DNA of 35,358 nucleotides from Frankia sp. EI5c. GTDB taxonomy: Bacteria; Actinomycetota; Actinomycetes; Frankiales; Frankiaceae. The stretch spans positions 159,723 to 195,080 of the forward strand of contig NZ_LRTK01000006.1 of NCBI RefSeq assembly GCF_001636565.1. The letters are read 5' to 3'. Shown here piece by piece: positions 5,563 to 34,832 of this stretch (position 1 is the first letter of the stretch; every line of letters starts with the position of its first letter). The notes under the pieces were generated by a model, which did no database searches, was not told where the DNA came from, and saw nothing but the letters and a program-made list of their open reading frames with translations. The position numbers and the translations under genes were made by a program.

Positions 5563-7155
5563 GCGCTCGGCGGCGTGGAACGCCTCCCCCTCGGGAACCG
5601 CCGTCTGGATCACCCTGGCGGTCGGCCAGGGCTCGGCCCACGCGCTCATCGCCCGGTGCACGACCGACGTGGTGCCGGCGGTGTCGGCGGTGGCCCGCAG
5701 GCCCTCCCCCGGGGACACTCCCCGCTCGGCGGCGTCCCGGCGGGCCAGTCGCGCCGCGGCCACCTCGGGCGAGGTGACACAGCGCAGCTCGATCAGCTCC
5801 GACGAGGTGTCCCGCGCCAGCCGCGCGGCCGCGGCCCGGTGCCTACCGTCGGACCAGGAGGCGTCAATGATCACGGTGTCGCCGCGTTCCAGGCCGGCGC
5901 GCGCCCGGGCCAGCAGCTCCGTGTACGTCCGCGCGGTGGTCTCCGACGCGAGCGGCCACACGTAGGAGTTGTCGCTGCCCGGGACATCCACGGTGAACTT
6001 CGCCCGCACCAGGTCGGACCGGATCAGCACCCGGCCGTCGTCGCCGGCGGCGAGCCGGCCCGCCAGCGTCGACTTGCCGGTGCCCGGAAGGCCGCCCACC
6101 AGCACCAGCCGCACCCGCGCGCGGCGCAGCCGCCGGTAGGAGATGTCGGCGAGCCGCCGGGCCTGTTCCCCGGCCCGCCGGGCCGACTCCGGCCCGGCCG
6201 TGCCCGCCACCGCGGCGCCGGCCGCGGCGACCGCGTCGACCAGTGCCTGGTAGGCGATATGCAGGTGCTCCAGGGAGCGCGGATGACCGCCGGCAACGCA
6301 CGCCCGGTATTCGCGCACGAGGCTTTCGGCGTCCTCGGGTACGCCGAGCCGCTCAAGGTCCACCGCGAGCAGCGCGATGTCCCCGAGGACGTCGCCGTGC
6401 CACCCGTCGCCGCCGAGCCGGCCCAGGATGCGCGGGCCGTCGTCCAGGCAGTAGATCCCCTCGGCCCGCAGAGCTCCGTGACCGCCCCGGATCCAGCCGT
6501 CCCGCGCGCGCGTCGCCAGCAGGCCGCCGCGACCGGCGAGATACGCCCGGGCGAGCCGGCCGATCTCGCCCACCACCTCGGTGTCCAGCACCGTCCCGCG
6601 GAACGGCTCGGCAGCGGCGAGCACCGCGTCCCACCGCCGCGCGGTCAGCTCCGGACCGTCCCCGCCGCCGTCGGCACACCGGCTGGACGGACCGAGTTCC
6701 GCGTGGAAGGCCGCGACCGCGCGGGCGATGGCGCGCAGCGGCGCCTCCAGCCGGTCGCCCCGCCGGACCAGGACCGCGAGCTGCCGGCCGGCGGGCAGGC
6801 GCCGCATGACGACGGCATGGTCGCGCGGGGCGCCGCTGTCGTCGACGACGTCCGCCACGCCCAGGTAGACCCCCGGGGCGAGCGGCCTGTTGCGCCGCAC
6901 CTCGGCCCGGCAGGCGGCCAGGCGCGACAGCCGGCCGTGGAACCCCGGATCGTCCGGGTCCACCGGCCGGCGCCGTTTGAGCACGCGGTCGCCGGAGAGG
7001 TACAGCAGCGCGGCGTCGGTCTCGACGACCTGCCCGCCGCCGGCTGTCGGCCCACCGCACGTGACGTGCCCACCGCCGGCGGCCTGCCCACCGCCGGCCG
7101 GCCGGGCCCAGACCTCCGCCGGAACGGTCATCGCGGCCACCTGCTCGACCGGCAT
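5551..7155 (-). CDS. Rv2004c-like protein: APH-like domain plus P-loop kinase
   Basis: A 534-residue two-domain protein. Residues about 45-290 resemble an aminoglycoside-phosphotransferase/choline-kinase fold; residues 348-534 are a P-loop kinase of zeta-toxin/gluconate-kinase type with Walker A GGLPGTGKST (354-363) and RSDLVRAKF, IIDASW and RCVTSPEVAAARLARR segments. This architecture is that of M. tuberculosis Rv2004c, a DosR-regulon gene of unknown reaction. Odd point: the APH catalytic motif, normally HGD, reads HGA here (226-228), and the later acidic metal-binding motif appears replaced by LGRLGG, so the first domain may be inactive. GGGAGG 4 bp before the ATG supports the start. The gene lies between the histidine kinase and the Acg-like gene, same direction. 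Substrate unknown. Confidence 0.85.
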   Translation of the reverse strand: MPVEQVAAMTVPAEVWARPAGGGQAAGGGHVTCGGPTAGGGQVVETDAALLYLSGDRVLKRRRPVDPDDPGFHGRLSRLAACRAEVRRNRPLAPGVYLGVADVVDDSGAPRDHAVVMRRLPAGRQLAVLVRRGDRLEAPLRAIARAVAAFHAELGPSSRCADGGGDGPELTARRWDAVLAAAEPFRGTVLDTEVVGEIGRLARAYLAGRGGLLATRARDGWIRGGHGALRAEGIYCLDDGPRILGRLGGDGWHGDVLGDIALLAVDLERLGVPEDAESLVREYRACVAGGHPRSLEHLHIAYQALVDAVAAAGAAVAGTAGPESARRAGEQARRLADISYRRLRRARVRLVLVGGLPGTGKSTLAGRLAAGDDGRVLIRSDLVRAKFTVDVPGSDNSYVWPLASETTARTYTELLARARAGLERGDTVIIDASWSDGRHRAAAARLARDTSSELIELRCVTSPEVAAARLARRDAAERGVSPGEGLRATADTAGTTSVVHRAMSAWAEPWPTARVIQTAVPEGEAFHAAERCIV

Positions 7156-7233
7156 CGCACCTCCCGAGCCCCCGCTGCCCGCCAGGTAACCATCGTGGCG
7201 GGCGCGGGCCCGGTCGAAGACCCGCGAGGGACC

Positions 7234-7258
7234 CCGGTACGCGGGCCTTTCGTACCGG
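7234..7258. promoter_or_regulatory. 8-bp inverted repeat upstream of the Rv2004c-like gene
   Basis: CCGGTACG and CGTACCGG are perfect arms separated by 9 bases, centred about 91 bp before the start codon at 7155. An overlapping repeat (GCGGGCC 7241-7247, GGCCCGC 7257-7263) offers an alternative fold. The 171-bp gap holds only this between the histidine kinase stop and the next gene. It could be an operator or a weak terminator. It does not match the DosR box I recall (GGGAC half-sites around an AT-rich centre). Confidence 0.4.
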
Positions 7259-7326
7259 CCCGCCCAGTCGTCGGTCCCGGCGGGAGACCGGTCGCCCGCG
7301 GCCGGCCTGACGGCCGGTGGGCGGGC

Positions 7327-9054
7327 TCAGGGCAGCGGGACCGACCAGCGCAGGCAGGTTCCGCCGGTCGGACCGGCGGCGACGTCGAAGGTGCCGCCCA
7401 GCTCCTCGGCGCGGCTGCGCAGGTTGTGCAGGCCGCTGCGCCGGCCGGTGCCGCCCAGGCCCACCCCGTCATCGGTGACCTCGGCGCGCAGCCATCCCTG
7501 GCTGACCGACACCACCAGCTCGACCCGGCTGGCGCGCGCGTGCCGGACGACGTTCGACAGGCTCTCCCGCACGACGGCCAGGAGGTGGTCGACCACCACC
7601 CCCTCCACCACGCTGTCCAGCGGGCCGTCGACGCGCAGCCGCGGGCTGAAGCCGAGTGCCTCGCCGATCTCCTCGACTATCTCGACCAGCCGGGCGCGGG
7701 CCCCCGGGCCGCCGGTGGAACGCCGGCCGCGCAGCTCGAACACCGTCGAGCGGATCTCCCGGATGGTCGCGTCGAGGTCGTCGACATAGGTGCTGAGGCG
7801 ACCGGCCGGCTGCGGGCGCTCCTCGGCCGCGGCCATGCCCTGCAGGCCGAGCGCCACCGCGTAGAGCCGCTGCATGACGTGATCATGCAGGTCGCGGGCG
7901 ATGCGGTCGCGATCTTCCAGGACGAGCAGCCGGTCCCGGGTCGCCCGGGAGGTGGCCAGGTTCAGGGCCACCTGGACGTGCCCGGCGAAGGTGGCCGCCA
8001 TGTCGAGGTCACTGTCCGCGAACGGCCGGCCGGCCGGCCGGCGGGCGAGCACCACGGCGCCCGCCCGGGTCTGCGCGCCGACCAACGGGATGACCATGAG
8101 GGGGCCGACCTCGACCGCGCCGATGCCGGAACCACCCGGCTCGGCGGCCGCGTCGTCCACGAGCAGCGGTCGGCCGGCCGCGACGGACCTCCCGGCGAGG
8201 GTGCCCGCGGCCGCCGCGGCCCGGCCCGCCAGGGCGTCCGCGCCGGGCCCGTCGGCCGCGTCGACCAGCAGCTCCCCGGTGGCCTCGTCGGCGAGCAGGA
8301 CGCAGGCCAGGTCGGCGGCGGCGACCTCGCGGGCGCGGCCGACGATCAGGTCGAGCGGATCGGAGCCGTCCGCCAGCAGGTGGCGCATGATGTCCGCGGA
8401 CGCCTGCAGCCACTGCTGGCGGCGCTGGGCGGCGCCGAACAGGCGCGCGTTCTCGATCGCGACCCCGGCACTGGCGGCCAGCGCCAGGACCATCTCCTCG
8501 TCCTGCGCGGTGAAGCGCCGCCCACCGCGTTTGTCGGTCAGGTAGAGGTTTCCGAACACCTCGCTGCGGACCTTGATCGGAACCCCGAGGAAGGTGCGCA
8601 TCGGCGGGTGGCCGGGCGGGAAGCCGACCGCGTGCCGGTGCGCCGAGATGTCGTCGAGGCGCACCGGCCGGGGCTCGGCGGTCAGCAGGCCGAGCACACC
8701 GTCGCCACGCGGTAGGTGACCGATGCTGCTGACCAGGTCGGCGTCCATGCCGACGTGGATGAACTGCTCCAGCCGCCCGTCGCGGGCGATCACGCCGAGG
8801 GCTCCGTAGCTGGCGTCGACGAGCTCGCAGGCCGCTTCGGCGATCCGCCGCAGGACGACCTCCAGGCTCAGGTCGGCCGCCACCGCGCGATGGGCCCGCA
8901 GCAGGCCACGCAGCCGTCCCTGGGTGGTCATCACCTCCTGGGCGCGCTCGACCAGCTGTGCCATCAGCTCGTCCAGCTCAAGACGCCCGGGGCCGGGCGG
9001 CGTGATCTCCCCGAACGAGTCCGGGACGTCCAGGAGCTTCTCGCTGTCGATCAT
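7327..9054 (-). CDS. devS: DevS/DosS-like haem GAF sensor histidine kinase
   Basis: A 575-residue kinase with two GAF domains (about 50-205 and 225-365), a HisKA_3 dimerisation domain with phospho-acceptor His390 (RDLHDHVMQRL), and a HATPase_c domain with N-box (ESLSNVVRHA) and DDGVG. GAF-A is very close to mycobacterial DevS/DosS: the proximal haem ligand corresponds to His149 (GHPPMRTF) and the distal pocket tyrosine to Tyr171 (GNLYLT). With the ATG at 9054, behind GAGGA, these fall at exactly residues 149 and 171. An in-frame ATG at 9216 would add 54 low-complexity residues and is not preferred. DevS senses O2, NO or CO through haem and phosphorylates DosR. No response-regulator gene lies in the window, so the partner is elsewhere. 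Confidence 0.92.
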   Translation of the reverse strand: MIDSEKLLDVPDSFGEITPPGPGRLELDELMAQLVERAQEVMTTQGRLRGLLRAHRAVAADLSLEVVLRRIAEAACELVDASYGALGVIARDGRLEQFIHVGMDADLVSSIGHLPRGDGVLGLLTAEPRPVRLDDISAHRHAVGFPPGHPPMRTFLGVPIKVRSEVFGNLYLTDKRGGRRFTAQDEEMVLALAASAGVAIENARLFGAAQRRQQWLQASADIMRHLLADGSDPLDLIVGRAREVAAADLACVLLADEATGELLVDAADGPGADALAGRAAAAAGTLAGRSVAAGRPLLVDDAAAEPGGSGIGAVEVGPLMVIPLVGAQTRAGAVVLARRPAGRPFADSDLDMAATFAGHVQVALNLATSRATRDRLLVLEDRDRIARDLHDHVMQRLYAVALGLQGMAAAEERPQPAGRLSTYVDDLDATIREIRSTVFELRGRRSTGGPGARARLVEIVEEIGEALGFSPRLRVDGPLDSVVEGVVVDHLLAVVRESLSNVVRHARASRVELVVSVSQGWLRAEVTDDGVGLGGTGRRSGLHNLRSRAEELGGTFDVAAGPTGGTCLRWSVPLP

Positions 9055-23393: not shown

Positions 23394-26093
23394 GTGACCG
23401 GGTATTCGCAATCACCGGCGTCCGGTAATTCCGCACGGCCGCTGCGTGCGGACGATCCCGTCCAGCTCGGCAACTACCGGGTGATCGGCCGGCTCGGCCA
23501 GGGCGGGATGGGCGCGGTCTTCCTTGGCCAGGCGCCGGACGGCACCGCCGTCGCGATCAAGGTCATCCGCCCGGAGCTGGCATCCCGGCCGGAGTTCCGG
23601 GCTCGCTTCGCCCGCGAGGCCGAGAGCGCCCGCCGGGTCCGCCGGTTCACGACGGCGGCCGTCCTCGACGCGGACCCGGAGGGACCGCAGCCGTACCTGG
23701 TGACGGAGTTCGTCGAGGGCCCGACGCTGTCGCGGCACGTCACGGCGCGCGGGCCGATGCGCCCGGCCGATCTCGAACAGCTTGCGGTCAGCGTGGCGAC
23801 CGCGCTGTCGGCGATCCACGCCGCCGGCATCGTGCACCGCGACCTCACCCCGGCGAACGTGCTGCTCTCCCCGGTCGGCCCGAAGGTGATCGACTTCGGG
23901 CTGGCGCGGGAGTACGACACCGTGAGCGACCTTTCTCGCAACGTGAAGCAGGCGATCGGCACACCCGGCTACATGTCGCCGGAGCAGATTCTCGATCTGC
24001 CGATCACCTCCGCGGTCGACATCTTCGCCTGGGGCGCGATCATGATCTTCGCCGCCACCGGGCAGCCGCCGTTCGGGCCGGGGCGGGTCGAGGCGGTCCT
24101 CTACCGCATCGTGAACGAGTCGCCCCGGCTGAACGACGTGACCGGCGAGCTGCGCGAGCTGGTCGAGCTCGCGATGCGCAAGGACCCGGCGACCCGCCCG
24201 AGCGCCGAGGAACTGCGCCTCGCGCTGACGGCCGGGGTGGCCATCCCGGAGCGGACCGCCCCGGCCGCGGGCGCCGAGGCCGACCGCGGCCGGGGCGGGA
24301 AGGACGACGGCGCGGCCCGGGGCCGACGATGGTCCCGGGCCGGGCGGCGGGCCGGCGCGGGGTCACCTCCGCCCGCCGCGGCCGGCGGCCGGGGCCCGGC
24401 GGACACCGTCATATCGCCGGGCACCCCACCGCCGCCGGTGCCGACGGCAGCCCCCCAGCCCGGCCCACCCGGGCAGAGTTCGCAACCGGGCTCCTCACAG
24501 CCGCCGGTCTCACCCGTTCCGTGGTCGGCCCAGCCCCTTTCGCAGCCGCTCACGCCGCCCCGTTCGCAGGGGCCGCAGTACCCCGCGGCACCGCCGTACT
24601 CCCCGGCTCCGCACCGCTCGCACGCACCTCAGCACTCCCCCGCACCTCAGCACTCCCCCGCACCGCACTCCCCCGCACCGCAGCACTCCCCCGCACCGCA
24701 GCACCTGTCGGCGCCGCAGCCCGCGGCCGCGGACGCTGCGCGGGCCGCCGGGCAGGGCGCGGCCGGGCAGGGCGCGGCTCCCGCGCCCGCGGGCACCGGC
24801 GCGGAGACGAACCGCCGGAAACTCGGTCGGCCGGTCATGGTGGTGGGCGTCGCGGCGTTGCTGGCCGCCGCCGTCGCCATTCCGCTGGCGACGCTGGGCG
24901 GTGACGACGACTCCGCCTCCACCGCGGACCGCGAGGCCATCGCGACCCAGCTCGCCGCCGACGCCGCCGCCAGCCGCGCCAACGACCCGGCCCTGGCCAG
25001 GCGCCTCAGCCTCGCCGCCTACCGGATCGCTCCCGTCGGTCCCGCCGCCGACGCCCTGATCGCGTCGTTCGGCGAGCGCACCGCGGTGCGGCCCCCGGCG
25101 TCCGGCAGCCCGGGCCGGGACGTCGCGTTCAGCCCGTCGGGCTCCGTCCTCGCCCTGGCCGAGGCCGACGGCACCCTACGGCTTTACCAGCTGACCGACG
25201 GCGGCGAGCCGACGCAGCTCAGCGAGCGGCGGACGGAGGACCCGGCCTCGGCCGTCATGTTCGGCCACAACGGCGACCGCCTGGCGCTCAGCGGCACCCA
25301 GGCCCCGGCGCGGCTGTGGGACGTCACCGACCCGGCCGACCCGCGGCCGCTGGCCGAGATGACCGGCCTGAGCAGTCCCGTCCAGGTGGCCCTGTCCGAG
25401 GACGGGTCGCTGCTCGCCGCCGCGACCGAGGACGGCACCTTCGCGCTGTGGCGGCTGACCGACCCGTCCGCGCCCGAGCCGCCCCGCCTGCAACGGTCCC
25501 CCGTGGCCCAGGACATGGCGCTCAACCCGGCCGGCGACCTGCTGGCGATGGCGGGCATCGGCGGTGACATCCAGCTCTGGGACATCACCGATCCGGCGAA
25601 CCCGGTACGGGCCGCCGTGCTCAGCGGCGCGGCGGGCGCGGTCAACACGGTGGCCTTCAGCCAGGACGGGAAGCGTCTGGCCGCCGGCGGGGATGATCGG
25701 ACCGTGCGGGTCTGGGACGTGACCGCGCCGGCCGAGGGCCGGGTCACTGACGAACTGACCGGGCACGCGGCCGCCGTCACCACCGTCGCGTTCGGGCCCG
25801 ACGGGCAGGTCGTGAGCGGTGACCAGGCGGGCGTCGTGGAGTACTGGGGCGGCTCCAACCCGGCGGCGCCGGTACGGATCGGCGACCTGAGGAGCCCCGT
25901 GCTGTCGCTCGCCGTCGATCAGGCCGGCGAGCGGCTCGCGCTCGCCACCGAGGACGGCCAGACCATGGTCTGGTCGGTGGATCCCGACCGGCTCACCGCG
26001 GTCGCCTGCGCGGACCCGACGGCGCGGATCAGCCAGGCCGAGTGGAGCAGGTTCGTACCGGATCTCCCCTACGCCGACCCCTGCGGGATCTGA
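23394..26093 (+). CDS. Receptor-like Ser/Thr protein kinase with external WD40 domain
   Basis: An 899-residue PknB-type kinase. Residues 28-280 are the kinase: glycine loop GQGGMG (35-40), Lys56, Glu75, HRDLTPAN (148-155, Thr152 replacing the usual Lys), DFG (167-169), GTPGYMSPEQ and the final Arg of DPATRP. Catalytic residues are otherwise complete, so it should be active. A Pro/Gln/His-rich linker (about 300-480, with HSPAPQ repeats) leads to one membrane helix (about 482-502, MVVGVAALLAAAVAIPLATL). Residues about 560-890 hold WD40-like repeats (LWDVTDPADP, LWDITDPANP, RVWDVTAPAE), probably a beta-propeller outside the cell. The ligand is unknown. It converges on the Hsp70-PstS fusion. Confidence 0.92.
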   Translation: MTGYSQSPASGNSARPLRADDPVQLGNYRVIGRLGQGGMGAVFLGQAPDGTAVAIKVIRPELASRPEFRARFAREAESARRVRRFTTAAVLDADPEGPQPYLVTEFVEGPTLSRHVTARGPMRPADLEQLAVSVATALSAIHAAGIVHRDLTPANVLLSPVGPKVIDFGLAREYDTVSDLSRNVKQAIGTPGYMSPEQILDLPITSAVDIFAWGAIMIFAATGQPPFGPGRVEAVLYRIVNESPRLNDVTGELRELVELAMRKDPATRPSAEELRLALTAGVAIPERTAPAAGAEADRGRGGKDDGAARGRRWSRAGRRAGAGSPPPAAAGGRGPADTVISPGTPPPPVPTAAPQPGPPGQSSQPGSSQPPVSPVPWSAQPLSQPLTPPRSQGPQYPAAPPYSPAPHRSHAPQHSPAPQHSPAPHSPAPQHSPAPQHLSAPQPAAADAARAAGQGAAGQGAAPAPAGTGAETNRRKLGRPVMVVGVAALLAAAVAIPLATLGGDDDSASTADREAIATQLAADAAASRANDPALARRLSLAAYRIAPVGPAADALIASFGERTAVRPPASGSPGRDVAFSPSGSVLALAEADGTLRLYQLTDGGEPTQLSERRTEDPASAVMFGHNGDRLALSGTQAPARLWDVTDPADPRPLAEMTGLSSPVQVALSEDGSLLAAATEDGTFALWRLTDPSAPEPPRLQRSPVAQDMALNPAGDLLAMAGIGGDIQLWDITDPANPVRAAVLSGAAGAVNTVAFSQDGKRLAAGGDDRTVRVWDVTAPAEGRVTDELTGHAAAVTTVAFGPDGQVVSGDQAGVVEYWGGSNPAAPVRIGDLRSPVLSLAVDQAGERLALATEDGQTMVWSVDPDRLTAVACADPTARISQAEWSRFVPDLPYADPCGI

Positions 26094-26101
26094 CCGCCGG
26101 A

Positions 26102-26133
26102 GCCCCGTGGCGGGAGACAACCCGTCACGGGGC
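26102..26133. terminator. Bidirectional hairpin terminator
   Basis: GCCCCGTG/CACGGGGC arms plus inner CGGG/CCCG, one G-T mismatch and a 6-base loop, in the 63-bp gap between the convergent kinase and Hsp70-PstS genes. It starts 8 bp after the kinase stop. No U-run. Confidence 0.7.
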
Positions 26134-26156
26134 CACGAGCTCAGACGTCCAGGCGC

Positions 26157-28793
26157 TCAGGCGTTCACCGGTGGGACGCCCTGCGTCAGCTCGCCGACGC
26201 GGGTGACGTTCTCCTTGATCGTGTTCCCGTCCCGCGGCACGTAGTGCGCGTCGAAGGCGATCTGCCGGCCGTTCTCCAGGTAGTAGCGCATGTAGGCGGC
26301 GGTGGCGGGCTCGCGCAGCGCGTCCTTGCGGGCGTAGACGAACACCGGCTTGCAAAGCGGCAGGTAGAAGCCCGTCCCGGCGGTGACCGCGTTCGGCTCG
26401 ACACACCCCTCGCCGTTGTCGATCTCCAGGCCGCGCAGCCGGGAACCGAACGTCTCGAAGGTCGGGAAGTCCAGGAAGCCCATCGCGAGCCGGTCACCGG
26501 AGACCGCGGTCGCCACCCCGCTGAGATCGGTCTCCTGGTACTGGCGGGACCGGTCGCTGGCGTCGTTCACGGTCGTGTTGAAGACCTGGGCCTGCACGCT
26601 GTCCCGCGCCGGTCCCACGAACGCGATCGGCTCGTTCGGGAAGGAGCTGTCGATCTCGCTCCAACGGTTGATCTTCGACCCGGCGTCCCAGATCTTGCGC
26701 ACCTGGTCGAGGGTCAGGCAGCGGGCCCAGGTGTTCTGTGGGTTCACCACGATGGGCAGGGTGTGGTGCGCCACCTCGAAACCGACGATCTGGTCCGCGC
26801 AGCCGGCGTTGTTCGAGAAGCTGGGATCGAACTCGAACGAGGCGCCGGCCACGTCGATCTCGCCGGCGCACAGTTTCGCGAAACCGTCCTCCGTGGTCGA
26901 CGAGGCCACGTTCACCGTCACGTTCGGCTGGACCTTGCGGAAGCCGGCGTAGGCGGTCTCGCTGATCGGCGCGACCTCGGCGGAACCGGCGACCAGCACC
27001 ATGTTCGGCCCGGCGGTCTCCGGGGCCGGGGCCACGCTCGCCGGCGGCGACGTCGGCCCCCCGGCGATCGGCAGGACGCTGGTCGGCGAGTCATCGTCAC
27101 CGCCGCGGGTCACGACGAGCCCGAGGGCCGCGGCCCCGACGATGAAGACGATCGCGGCGACGGCGGCCGCGATGGTCGTCCGCGGCCAGCCACCGGACGA
27201 GCCGCCGTGGGAGCCCCGCCGGCCGGGCCCACCGCCGCCGGCCCGGTGAGCCGCGGGCGGCGCCGCTCCGCCACCACCGGCACCGCCACCACCGCCGGCC
27301 GGGTAGCCTCCGCCCGGCCCGCCGGCGTTGGGCTCGACGACCTCCATGCCGCCGAGAACCGTGGCGGCGCTCGCGTCATAGCCGGTGGTGGACGTCCCGG
27401 CGAAGTCGGGTGCGGTCTGCGGGGCCGCCGGGACGCCCCCGCCGACGCCCGGGTCCCGCGGCGACGCGCCCGGGTTCCCGATCACGGTGGCGTCCGGGTC
27501 CGCCTGGGACGGCCCCGCCCCCGGCCCCGAGGCGGCACCGACCGGCGGGAACGACGCGGCCGGCGGGAACGACGCGGCCGGCGGCACGGAGGTCAGCGGC
27601 GGAACCGAGCCCCCCGGCGGGTAGGAGCCCGGCTGCGAGAGCCCGCCCCACGGCGGCACGGATGCGGTGGGGGCGACGTCCGGCGGCCGGATGATGGACG
27701 TCACGTCCTCACCCGGGGAGCGTTCGGCGAGCCCCGCGGCGATCAGCGCGGCACCGACGGCGATGTCCTCGTCCGAGCCGTACTGCCAGCGGCCGACCGC
27801 GGGCAGTGCCGCGCGCATCTGTGCCGCGACCAGCGGCATCCGGGCGGTGCCGCCGAAGAGCAGCACGGTGGAGAGGTCCGCGGGGTCCGCCTGGCCGCTG
27901 CGCAGCGCCTGCCGGAACGCCCGCACCGTGTCGTCGACCGCCGGCGTGACCAGCGCGTCGAGGTCGGCGCGGCGCAGGGTGACCGCGGCCGGCTCCCGAC
28001 CGGGGAGCGCGAGCGGGACCTCGATCTCCTCTTCCTCGGCCAGGTACTCCTTGGCCTGCGCGCACTCGTCACGCAGCCGGGCGAGGGCGACCGCCACCGC
28101 CGTGTCGGTGGTGTCGAGCTGGTCACGGCTGGTACCGGCGTGTGCCAGCACCCTGTCCACCAGCAGCTCGTCGATGTGCTCGCCGCCCGTGCGGCTGATG
28201 CCGGCCGGCGAGCCGAGCCGCTCGAGCCCGAACGGGCTGAAGGACAGCACCGCCGCGTCGAAGTGCCCCGCGCCGAAGTCGTAGAAGCCGACCAGGTCGA
28301 CGGTGCGCGCGGCGCGGCGGCTGATCAGCAGCCGTCCGATCGCGTCGGCGGATGCGCACGTCGTGACGGGAGCGGAGACGTCCGAAAGCTGGCTGACGGC
28401 GCTGGCGAAGGCCTCGCGGCGGTGCTCGGGCCAGAACGCCGGATGAGCGACGACGATCTGTTCCGGCGCCTCCCCCCGGGACGCGGTGACCTGCTCGACG
28501 AGATGGCCGATCAGCCGGGCGAGCAGACCCTCCGGGCTGTAGGCGGCGCCGCCGACGAGGATGTGGCCGGGCTCGCCGATCCGGTGCAGGAACCCGCGCG
28601 CCGCGCGGTCGGGAGCGGCGGTGGCCCGCCGCAGTGCCGACCGACCGGCGAGCACACCCCCCGCCGGGGGCATGAAGAGAACGGACGGCACCGCCCGCGC
28701 GCCACCCAGGGTGATCACCGCGGGCCAGCCTCCGTCGGAGACCGCGAGAACCGTGGTCGCCGAACCGACGTCGATGCCAAGTTGGTAGCCCAC
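26157..28793 (-). CDS. Hsp70-like ATPase domain fused through a membrane helix to a PstS-like domain
   Basis: An 878-residue fusion. Residues 1-355 are an Hsp70 actin-fold domain: GIDVGSATT (6-14, phosphate 1), DFGAGHFD (172-179, phosphate 2), GGEHIDELLVDRVL, LLFGGTARMP (about 311-320, adenosine site). Two residues needed for hydrolysis in DnaK differ: Lys70 is Leu69 and Thr199 is His177. The Hsp70 peptide-binding domain is absent. A Pro/Gly-rich linker (356-535) is followed by a single helix (about 537-560) and a PstS-type binding domain (590-875: AGSAEVAPISETAY, LCAGEIDVAGASFE, the C-terminal YLPLCKPVFVYARKD) outside the cell, with cysteines probably paired. GTG 28793, GGAGG 5 bp upstream; the frame continues to 28952 without support. 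Ligand and role unknown. Confidence 0.9.
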   Translation of the reverse strand: MGYQLGIDVGSATTVLAVSDGGWPAVITLGGARAVPSVLFMPPAGGVLAGRSALRRATAAPDRAARGFLHRIGEPGHILVGGAAYSPEGLLARLIGHLVEQVTASRGEAPEQIVVAHPAFWPEHRREAFASAVSQLSDVSAPVTTCASADAIGRLLISRRAARTVDLVGFYDFGAGHFDAAVLSFSPFGLERLGSPAGISRTGGEHIDELLVDRVLAHAGTSRDQLDTTDTAVAVALARLRDECAQAKEYLAEEEEIEVPLALPGREPAAVTLRRADLDALVTPAVDDTVRAFRQALRSGQADPADLSTVLLFGGTARMPLVAAQMRAALPAVGRWQYGSDEDIAVGAALIAAGLAERSPGEDVTSIIRPPDVAPTASVPPWGGLSQPGSYPPGGSVPPLTSVPPAASFPPAASFPPVGAASGPGAGPSQADPDATVIGNPGASPRDPGVGGGVPAAPQTAPDFAGTSTTGYDASAATVLGGMEVVEPNAGGPGGGYPAGGGGGAGGGGAAPPAAHRAGGGGPGRRGSHGGSSGGWPRTTIAAAVAAIVFIVGAAALGLVVTRGGDDDSPTSVLPIAGGPTSPPASVAPAPETAGPNMVLVAGSAEVAPISETAYAGFRKVQPNVTVNVASSTTEDGFAKLCAGEIDVAGASFEFDPSFSNNAGCADQIVGFEVAHHTLPIVVNPQNTWARCLTLDQVRKIWDAGSKINRWSEIDSSFPNEPIAFVGPARDSVQAQVFNTTVNDASDRSRQYQETDLSGVATAVSGDRLAMGFLDFPTFETFGSRLRGLEIDNGEGCVEPNAVTAGTGFYLPLCKPVFVYARKDALREPATAAYMRYYLENGRQIAFDAHYVPRDGNTIKENVTRVGELTQGVPPVNA
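27543..27578. repeat. 18-bp tandem duplication in the fusion linker
   Basis: CGGCGGGAACGACGCGGC occurs twice, in frame, giving repeated AASFPP units in the linker before the membrane helix. Confidence 0.75.
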
Positions 28794-29118
28794 TGGATCC
28801 TCCGGATGTCTTCGCTCGTTCTCCGCCGTCACCGCCGCGAACGGGCGCAGCGTGGCCCCCCGGCTCCCGCTCAGTGCGCCTACGCCGCGACACCGAGACC
28901 ATCGGCTACCGACGGGGTACTTCACACGACAACGAAAGACCTGGCGGCCCACATCGTAGGCCGCCAGACCAGGACCGCCCTATCCGGTAGCGGACATCGA
29001 TATCAGAAGGCGGACACCCACAGAAGGCCGAGCGCATCCGGAACGCCCATTCCGCCGGAACACGTCCGGCGCGGGCCCAGGAGAAACACCGGGTTCATCC
29101 GGTGAAACGCGGCTGACC
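28794..29118. other. Upstream region of the Hsp70-PstS gene
   Basis: About 325 bp without a gene. It holds a 9-bp inverted repeat (28941-28967) and presumably the promoter of the fusion gene, reading leftwards. I looked for tandem PhoP-type repeats (GTTCACC) and found only a lone GTTCATCCGGTGAAAC-like dyad near 29092-29107. Confidence 0.5.
28941..28967. promoter_or_regulatory. 9-bp inverted repeat upstream of Hsp70-PstS gene
   Basis: CTGGCGGCC and GGCCGCCAG are perfect arms around CACATCGTA, centred about 160 bp upstream of the GTG at 28793. It may be an operator or a hairpin in a long leader RNA. Nothing ties it to a known regulator. Confidence 0.45.
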
Positions 29119-29296
29119 TCATTTCAGGGCGCGCAGCTCCGCCGCGGCCTGCGCGATGCATTCCGCGAGGTCGGGCGGCCGCTCGGCCGAGGCCCAGCGC
29201 GCCCAGGCGACCTTGAAGACCGCCACCGCGCTGTGCGCGGCGAGGCTGGCCGCGGGCTCGGCGACGCCGCGCGCCCGCAGCGCCTCGCGGAGCGGC
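29119..29296 (-). pseudogene. TetR-family regulator remnant (C-terminal part only)
   Basis: Read leftwards, the frame from the junction to a TGA at 29119-29121 gives about 58 residues: RPLREALRARGVAEPAASLA, AHSAVAVFKVAWARWASA, ERPPDLAECIAQAAAELRAL. This is the typical ligand-domain end of an actinobacterial TetR regulator. The DNA-binding half and any start codon are missing, replaced abruptly by SDR sequence on the other strand. It cannot make a functional protein. Coding-quality sequence with no frameshift suggests the loss is recent. Confidence 0.72.
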
Positions 29297-29648
29297 CGGC
29301 TACATCGGGGACGGCTCGACCCGCTGGTCGGCCGTGCACCGGGCCGACGCCGCCCACCTGGTCGGGCTCGCGCTGGAGAAGGCGCCGGCGGGCACGCGGC
29401 TGCATGTGGTGGCCGAGAGCGGGATCGCCTCCCGCGACATCGCCGCCGCGATCGGCGACCACCTGGGCGTGCCCACGGTGTCGGTCGCGCCCTCGGACGC
29501 CCCGGACCACTTCGGCTGGATCGCGGGCTTCTTCGGCCTGGACCTCGCGGCGTCCAGCGCCCGCACCCGGGAGCTGCTGGGCTGGACGCCGACCGGCCCG
29601 ACGCTGCTGGCGGACATCGCCGCCGGCGCCTACGCGCTGCCCGGTTGA
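29295..29648 (+). pseudogene. Atypical-SDR oxidoreductase remnant (C-terminal part only)
   Basis: About 117 residues of the C-terminal half of an NAD(P)-dependent epimerase-like SDR: GYIGDGSTRWSAVHRADAAH, LVGLALEKAPAGTRLHVVAE, then ARTRELLGWTPTGPTLLADI and a normal stop. The Rossmann half with GxxGxxG and the catalytic YxxxK is absent; the frame begins at the junction with the TetR remnant. A GTG at 29334 could start a 104-residue product, but it would have neither cofactor site nor catalytic residues. Confidence 0.75.
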
Positions 29649-29670
29649 CGCCGGGGTGACGGCCGGGGAC

Positions 29671-29689
29671 GGCCGGATGACCGCCGGCC
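29671..29689. terminator. Hairpin after meaB
   Basis: GGCCGG and CCGGCC arms around ATGACCG lie directly against the meaB stop (29690) and 23 bp after the SDR remnant stop. Short stem, no U-run. Confidence 0.4.
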
Positions 29690-30679
29690 CTACGAGTCGA
29701 ACGCCTCCAGGATGGCGTCGGCGGCGAGGCTGGGAGTCAGCGCGCCGTCGCGCACCCGGCGCTCGATGTCGGCGGTCACCGCCCGGACCCCGGGGTGGTC
29801 GTGCAGGCGGGACAGGACGCGGTCCTGGACCATCGCCCACATCCAGTCGACCTGCTGGCGGCGGCGGTGCTCGGCGAGCTCACCCGAGGCGTCGAGGGTG
29901 TCCTGGTGTTTGAGTACCTGTGCCCAGACCGTGTCCAGGCCGGTCTTCTCGGCGGCGCTGCAGGTCAGCACCGGGGTCTGCCACTCGCGGGCGGAACCCT
30001 GAAGTAACCGGATCGCGCCGGCCAGCTCCCGGGCGGCCCGGCGGGCCTCCAGCTCGTGCGGGCCGTCCGCCTTGTTGACCGCGATGACGTCCGCCAGTTC
30101 CAGGACGCCCTTCTTGATGCCCTGCAGCTGGTCCCCCGTGCGGGCCAGGGTCAGGAAAAGGAAGGTGTCCACCATGTCGGCGACCGTGGTCTCGGACTGG
30201 CCGACCCCGACGGTCTCGACGAGCACCACGTCGTAGCCGGCCGCCTCCATGATCACCATGGCCTCGCGGGTGGCCTTGGCGACGCCGCCGAGCGTGCCCG
30301 CGGTCGGCGACGGGCGGATGAACGCCGCGGGATCGGCCGACAGCGCCGCCATCCGGGTCTTGTCCCCGAGGATGCTGCCGCCGGTACGGGTGGACGACGG
30401 GTCGACCGCCAGTACCGCCACCTGGTGGCCCTTGCCGGTCAGCATCGTGCCGAGCGCGTCGATGAACGTCGACTTGCCCACGCCGGGCACGCCGGTGATA
30501 CCCACCCGGCGTGCCTTGCCGGCGTGCGGCAGCAGGGCCACCAACAGCCGCTGGGCGGCCTCGCGATGGTCGGCCCTGGTCGACTCGACCAGGGTGACGG
30601 CCCGTGCGATCCACACCCTGGACGACGCGAGCACACCGTCGGCGTACTCGGCGACGTCGACGGGCCTGCGCGCCACCAC
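29690..30679 (-). CDS. meaB: Methylmalonyl-CoA mutase-associated GTPase MeaB
   Basis: A 329-residue G3E-type P-loop GTPase of normal length. GVPGVGKS (63-70) is Walker A, AVDPSSTRTGGSILGDKTRM follows, ETVGVGQSE is the G3 region and NKAD the base-specificity motif. MeaB gates loading of adenosylcobalamin onto the mutase and protects or repairs it using GTP. GTG 30679 begins 2 bp after the mutB stop; a second GTG follows. The frame stays open much further upstream (to 31981), but that part overlaps mutB and is not coding. Last gene of the mutA-mutB-meaB operon. Confidence 0.95.
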   Translation of the reverse strand: MVARRPVDVAEYADGVLASSRVWIARAVTLVESTRADHREAAQRLLVALLPHAGKARRVGITGVPGVGKSTFIDALGTMLTGKGHQVAVLAVDPSSTRTGGSILGDKTRMAALSADPAAFIRPSPTAGTLGGVAKATREAMVIMEAAGYDVVLVETVGVGQSETTVADMVDTFLFLTLARTGDQLQGIKKGVLELADVIAVNKADGPHELEARRAARELAGAIRLLQGSAREWQTPVLTCSAAEKTGLDTVWAQVLKHQDTLDASGELAEHRRRQQVDWMWAMVQDRVLSRLHDHPGVRAVTADIERRVRDGALTPSLAADAILEAFDS

Positions 30680-30681
30680 GG

Positions 30682-32912
<2,231 letters not shown>

Positions 32913-32913
<1 letters not shown>

Positions 32914-34832
32914 CAGGCCACTCCCGCCTCTGCCAGGGTCGTGCGCAGCACCTCGACGGCGTTGCAGCCGGCGAAGACGTACCCGGTCACGCCCGCGGCG
33001 GCGTCGGTCGCCGCCCGGGTGCCGGCCTTGCCCGCGAGCCACACCGTGCCGGCGCCCGCCGCCCGCAGTGCCTCGGCCACCGGGGCCGCCCACTCGGCGT
33101 ACACCTTGTCCGCCGAGCACAGGCAGGCGACCTTCGCGCCGGACGCGGTGAAGGCCGCGGCGATCGCGGCCGGGTCCGTGCCCGGCCCCGAGTCGGGGGT
33201 GGCCAGACCGCCGGCCTGGAACAGGTTCGCGGCGAAGGTCGACCGGGCGGTGAAGGCCGCCACGCTGCCGATCGTCGCCAGGAAGACCGCCGGGCGAGCC
33301 CCCGTCGACGCGGTGTGGGTGTCCGACCGGGCGCGCAGTTCCTCGTAGTCCTGGTCGTAGGTGATGACCGGCAGACCGGCGCCGGTCCCGGTGCCCGCGG
33401 CGCTTCCGGTGCCCGCGGCCGGCTCCGCCGGGGCGGCCGGGCGCTCGGGCAGCTTCTCGGTCAGGTTCGGGAACTCGCTCACCCCGGTCAGCGGGTCACG
33501 CCGGTGCGCGAGCGCGTCCGCCCGGGCGGCCCAGGTGGCGTCGAGCCGGGCCCGCAGCGATCCGTCGGCCAGCGTCGCGGCGAGACCGCCGGCCCGCTCG
33601 ATCTCGGTGAACACCGCCCATGCCGCCGCGGCGAGGGAGTCGGTCAGGGACTCCACGTACCAGGAGCCACCCGCCGGGTCGACCACCCGGATGAGGCTCG
33701 ACTCCTCCTGCAGCAGGGTCTGCGTGTTGCGCGCGATCCGGCGGGAGAAGTCATCCGGCAGTCCCAGCCGGACATCGAAGGGCAGCACCGTCACCACGTC
33801 CGCGCCGCCGACGCCGGCCGCGAAGCAGGCGACGGTCGTGCGCAGCATGTTCACCCAGGGATCCCGGCGGGTCATCATCGCGGACGAGGTGACCGCGTGC
33901 TGCCGCTGGGCCCACAGCTGCGGCGCCGCGCCGCAGACCTCCGCGACCCGCGCCCACAGCCGGCGGGCGGCCCGCAGCTTGGCGATCGTGAGGAACTGGT
34001 CGGCGGTCGCCGCGTAGCGGAACTCCAGCTGGCCGAGCGCGTCGGCCACGCTCATCCCGGCGCCGGTCAGCTCGCGCAGGTAGGCGACCCCGGTGGCGAT
34101 CGACGCGCCGAGCTCCTGCGCGTCGCTGCCGCCGGCGTCGTGGTAGGCCCGGGCGTCCACGACCAGCGTGCGCAGCCGCGGGTACTCGGCGGCCACCCGG
34201 GGAGCGAGGGCGCGGACCCCGGCGAAGTCGGGGGCCGCGCCCGTCCGGGCCGCGAGGCCGAGCGGGTCCGCCCCGAGCACCCCGCTGACCTGGGAGGCCG
34301 GCACGCCGCGCTCGTCCACGAGAGCCAGGAAGGCGGCCGCGGCCTCGCCCGTGAGCGGGCCGGCGTCCAGGGCGACGGGCGCCAATTCCAGGTAGACCTC
34401 GCGCAGCACCTCGGCCAGCCCGTCCAGCGGGAGCCCGGCCGGCCCCAGCCGCAGCCACAGCGAGGTCACACCGTTCTCCAGGTCGGCGAGCGCCGCCTGG
34501 GCACCGACCTTGGGGTCGGGATGGCTGTGCAGGGCGCGGACGTCCCAGCCGTCGGTGTTGGCGCCCTGCGGGCGCCCACCGCGCACGAACGGCGCGAGTC
34601 CCGGCAGGCCCGTCGGCGCCAGCCCGGCGCCGTCGGCCGCGTCGTACAGCGGCCTGATGTGGATCCCCTCGTAGGTCGAGGACGCGATCAGGTCCTCGAC
34701 CTCGCCGGGCCCGGCATCCTCACCCGCGACCCCGGACTTGCGCAGGACGCCCAGGACGAGGCGCCGCCACTCGTCCCTCGTCGCGCCCGGAAAATCGGCG
34801 GCCAACTCCAGCTCCACCGGTGGAACGGTCAT
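32913..34832 (-). CDS. mutA: Methylmalonyl-CoA mutase small subunit
   Basis: A 639-residue homologue of the catalytic subunit that lacks the base-off B12 His (the region reads [20 protein letters not shown]), as is normal for the non-catalytic MutA. It forms the heterodimer with MutB. Recognisable segments are [40 protein letters not shown] and [17 protein letters not shown]. An Ala/Gly/Pro-rich insertion (about residues 445-470) separates the barrel and C-terminal domains. The ATG at 34832 has only a weak upstream ribosome site. It is the first gene of the operon; no regulator or epimerase gene lies next to it in the window. Confidence 0.95.

Follow-up and report, generated by a model that had tools for sequence, protein, structure and literature searches.

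Our results suggest that positions 29119-29648 of the window, the whole 35,358-nucleotide stretch of Frankia sp. EI5c DNA that was analysed, hold the dead remains of a divergent TetR-SDR gene pair. The pair would have arrived in this lineage and then been broken by one illegitimate, recent deletion of about 1.01 kb, a course of events to which we assign a probability of roughly 0.9. What is left of the TetR-family regulator (29119..29287, minus strand) is the last 55 codons and the stop, with neither the HTH domain nor a start. The atypical, Epimerase-like SDR (29286..29648, plus strand) retains the last ~120 codons and the stop, and is without its N-terminal cofactor-binding half and its start. 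The two stop codons, at 29119-29121 (TetR, minus) and 29646-29648 (SDR, plus), are the outer limits of the segment. Deletion pseudogenes produced by illegitimate (non-repeat) recombination are a known category, and the window does not depart from it: here too both genes lose the start and the N-terminal half, and the join is likewise clean, with a 0-2 bp overlap.

The sequence-only reading had described the C-terminal ends of a TetR (minus strand) and an SDR (plus strand), both lacking a start, and the frames, the homology and the positions of the start codons all agree with this. The TetR frame has no stop back to 29737-29739, and its sole ATG, GTG or TTG codon is the GTG at 29226, within the remnant; in the SDR frame the earliest such codon, the GTG at 29334, also falls within the remnant. 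Note that open frames alone are weak evidence here, since the DNA is GC-rich and no stop interrupts the TetR frame over ~200 codons, most of which lie antisense to the SDR.

Both parts match their families far beyond chance, the SDR part at 80% identity to relatives (E 8.9e-57) and the TetR part at 69% (E 3.0e-19). Compared with seven genomes of g6, another genus in the window's family, the TetR remnant shows 66.7-72.5% amino-acid identity in local alignments to the C-termini of intact, full-length TetR proteins. This match is partial only: the remnant aligns to the C-terminal 55 residues and does not reach the TetR_N (PF00440) HTH, and the 59-aa fragment gave no Pfam TetR match, which the intact homologue does give. 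The SDR remnant is 74-80% identical at the amino-acid level to the g6 homologues and up to 83% to a named homologue, so that its homology to the C-terminal half of intact SDRs (PF01370) spans 74-83% identity, although the remnant alone matched no Pfam or NCBIfam family. A glycine-rich cofactor motif in an N-terminal Rossmann fold is the hallmark of SDR and NAD-dependent epimerase-like proteins; in the intact homologue this motif sits in the N-half, which is absent from the window. The nearest solved structures to the intact SDR homologue are NAD-dependent epimerases, with weak similarity (best E 1.2e-8). The mycofactocin regulator MftR was considered as an identity for the TetR and rejected, the intact TetR homologue scoring 75.2 bits against the NCBIfam TIGR03968 cut-off of 224.9. 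More distant SDR relatives are present in congeners (best 55-57%, in G001, G003 and G004), and in the window's own genome the SDR remnant is the sole match at E<=0.001.

Intact counterparts were found in relatives. We compared 26 SDR loci (7 in g6 genomes, plus L049-L067, the leading 19 of 80 named loci), and a full-length divergent TetR was present at 21/26, which bears out the earlier claim that the divergent layout is the ordinary one. At the remaining five (L049, L054, L057, L059 and L061) a close SDR homologue has no divergent TetR that could be recognised beside it, and these loci are absent from the length and TetR counts given below. Thus, the divergent pair is the usual, though not the sole, arrangement. 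A published account (PMC4482099) likewise describes TetR regulators lying divergent and <200 bp from their neighbour as the common arrangement in mycobacteria and Streptomyces. One intact pair, at locus L149 (TetR 7027-7584, SDR 6042-6941), comprises full versions of both genes, divergently arranged just as the window remnants are; its TetR (~185 residues) carries TetR_N (PF00440) and its SDR (299 residues) matches Epimerase PF01370. Unlike this pair, the window is without both 5' regions and without the intergenic region.

The lengths point to a single event. From stop to stop, the 21 intact loci (one duplicate contig included) measure 1538-1599 bp, compared to 530 bp in the window. The duplicate, L056 of Pseudofrankia sp. 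BMG5.36, is the same contig as L154 and was dropped from the missing-length, private-change, pN/pS, tree and conservation counts. In 20/20 distinct intact pairs the intact arrangement carries extra sequence exactly at the join, and the length missing between the equivalents of the join is consistently 1008-1020 bp. Since this missing length is uniform, a single deletion of ~1.01 kb explains both truncations, in line with the earlier suggestion that one event took away the promoter and 5' ends that the two genes shared.

Mapping against these pairs placed the junction at about 29286..29287, with ~1013 bp missing and an overlap of 0-2 bp (CG). On the TetR side, homology to the intact genes runs through the CTC at 29284-29286 plus one further G (CTCG), that is, to 29286/29287. 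On the SDR side, homology from ~29286 begins with CGCGGAGCGGCC, a sequence that L055 and L058 carry unchanged; the window from 29286 reads CGCGGAGCGGCCGGCTAC, the same bases as in these two loci, and encodes Arg-Gly-Ala-Ala-Gly-Tyr. The join is thus some 6-14 bases to the left of the 29293-29300 interval where the sequence-only reading had put it. The GGCCGGC (29294-29300) offered there as possible microhomology was rejected as such, because it falls rightward of the join and belongs to SDR coding sequence that is present in intact relatives too, and the short homology expected at both ends came down to the 0-2 bp overlap in register. A repeat-mediated deletion was considered and rejected: in 20 relatives the longest word common to the two break regions within 60 bp does not exceed 9 bp, and in register the overlap is 0-2 bp. 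Chance alone would produce an overlap of 2 bp, which therefore tells us that no repeat was used and nothing more.

On the scale of divergence from its relatives the deletion looks young, since the SDR remnant still fits the intact genes. It shows 0 departures at the 35 columns that do not vary among 25 intact rows, which gives a one-sided 95% upper bound of 0.039 neutral changes/site. Against the 21 nearer rows ('near21'), 1/50 invariant columns departs (one-sided upper bound 0.043 neutral changes/site), and at a 95% conservation threshold 3/67 columns do (upper bound 0.053); intact rows in leave-one-out have 0 to 4 such departures each. For the TetR remnant, 0/12 departures were seen in the first 32 columns, with a loose upper bound of 0.112. 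Note that L064-L067 were left out of the near21, TetR conservation and private-change counts. Recency had been argued from the intact frames on both sides; residue conservation supports it, and the frame argument does so weakly. We also compared pN/pS pairwise, with 12 core rows (SDR) and 11 core rows (TetR) of those available. The mean for the SDR remnant, 0.481, is the highest of 13 (the 12 core intact genes range over 0.286-0.466) and is a faint sign of some decay, whereas the TetR remnant, at 0.679, lies inside the 0.430-0.850 of its 11 core rows. Decay has perhaps just begun to show. A residual product may be under purifying selection, though the data can be explained without it.

How would this locus have formed? 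A divergent TetR-SDR pair, of a kind that occurs across actinomycetes, would have settled between an Hsp70-like gene and meaB. One illegitimate deletion, sized at ~1.01 kb by comparison with intact pairs and as a net difference, would then have taken away the 5' 60-70% of each gene and the intergenic region that they shared. Since there is no repeat at the break, the likely route would be end joining, or slippage during replication, across an overlap of 0-2 bp. The window's genome has a Ku gene (E 6.2e-53); in mycobacteria, PMC3519483 describes Ku and LigD as processing breaks without large homology, and the direct-repeat deletions studied there as independent of end joining. The pair is absent from this site in 5/5 congeners examined, and so it probably came into this lineage and was later broken. 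No intact copy is known at this very site, and the order of arrival and then deletion is therefore one that we infer.

The absence of any congener with an intact pair at the site would also be expected if the pair was already truncated on arrival, with the deletion in the donor, or if two separate truncations occurred, and the best relatives do belong to other genera and families. However, a search of 35 genomes of the family with the window DNA did not turn up the same join, nor was it seen in the 26 loci compared, and a single deletion is more economical than two independent truncations that happen to meet at one point. We consider both versions unlikely. An assembly artefact, in which the genome has the intact pair and the assembler skipped ~1 kb, appears highly improbable. 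The assembly is a draft of 159 contigs with 5.03% estimated contamination, but the join is deep inside a 395,477-bp contig, there is no N in the window, and the break regions, with the little sequence that they share, provide no repeat for an assembly collapse. Moreover, the missing halves are on no other contig: g6 DNA queries for the lost 5' halves gave short matches only across the assembly (best 59 bp at 81%), and the SDR N-half protein found paralogues only (31-53%).

That the genome keeps the remnants as small working genes, for example one for a shortened SDR C-terminal protein, is barely credible. The residues of the SDR remnant remain conserved and the GTG at 29334 could start a 104-codon frame; a young deletion predicts such conservation equally, however, and a product of this kind would be without the cofactor-binding half, the native start and the promoter. 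The truncated form was, in addition, seen in one genome only, no relative among the 35 family genomes sharing it. With arrival followed by one deletion as the preferred reading, both remnants should be dead, because the TetR is without its DNA-binding domain and the SDR without its cofactor-binding half, and both have lost the start and the native promoter. The annotation here should be two pseudogenes, neither the TetR nor the SDR being functional. The event is gene loss and decay of the ordinary sort, well mapped, and not new biology; its use is the correction of the annotation, and it provides a clean case in which the facing 5' ends of a regulator and its likely target gene allowed both to be lost at a single stroke.

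The remnant pair is held in a variable segment (28997..29689, left edge ~28997-29029) that aligns to none of the congeners, whereas its flanks align to 5/5. On the left lies the Hsp70-like gene with a C-terminal phosphate-binding-like domain (26157..28800, minus strand, start approximate) and on the right the meaB GTPase gene (29690..30673, minus strand, start approximate). Across six genomes, this site is nearly empty in 2 (G003 and G004), contains an unrelated stretch of ~319 bp in 1 (G002), an AMP-ligase-like gene in 2 (G001 and G005; the name comes from reading the translation, not from a family search) and the broken TetR-SDR pair in 1. It may be, and we propose this only tentatively and with considerable doubt, that genes in this genus repeatedly land in, and are lost from, the Hsp70-like/PBP-meaB spot, where cargo is taken in and quickly broken. 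The g6 pairs sit elsewhere in their genomes: of window positions 26001-33500, only the TetR and SDR parts matched those loci. The tree of the SDR part does not single out a donor genus: 2/23 of its inner branches are starred, and the fork joining the window to its neighbour is weak.

The AMP-ligase-like gene takes the place of the TetR-SDR remnant at L142 (5714-7279) and L143 (6024-7667), and none was seen at the equivalent position in the window or in G002, G003 and G004. A search for a remnant of it in the window and in the gap of G002 found none (best E 0.49). The Hsp70-like gene combines, in one frame (26157-28800, minus strand), an Hsp70-like domain, a low-complexity linker and a C-terminal PBP_like_2 domain, an unusual combination; the gene aligns at the same place in 5/5 congeners. 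The window's genome measures 6.6 Mb, compared to 7.9-9.5 Mb in the five congeners, with a completeness of 96.21% and a contamination of 5.03%. Finally, adjoining the Hsp70-like gene, a single frame at 23394-26093 (plus strand) encodes a protein kinase domain followed by WD40 repeats.
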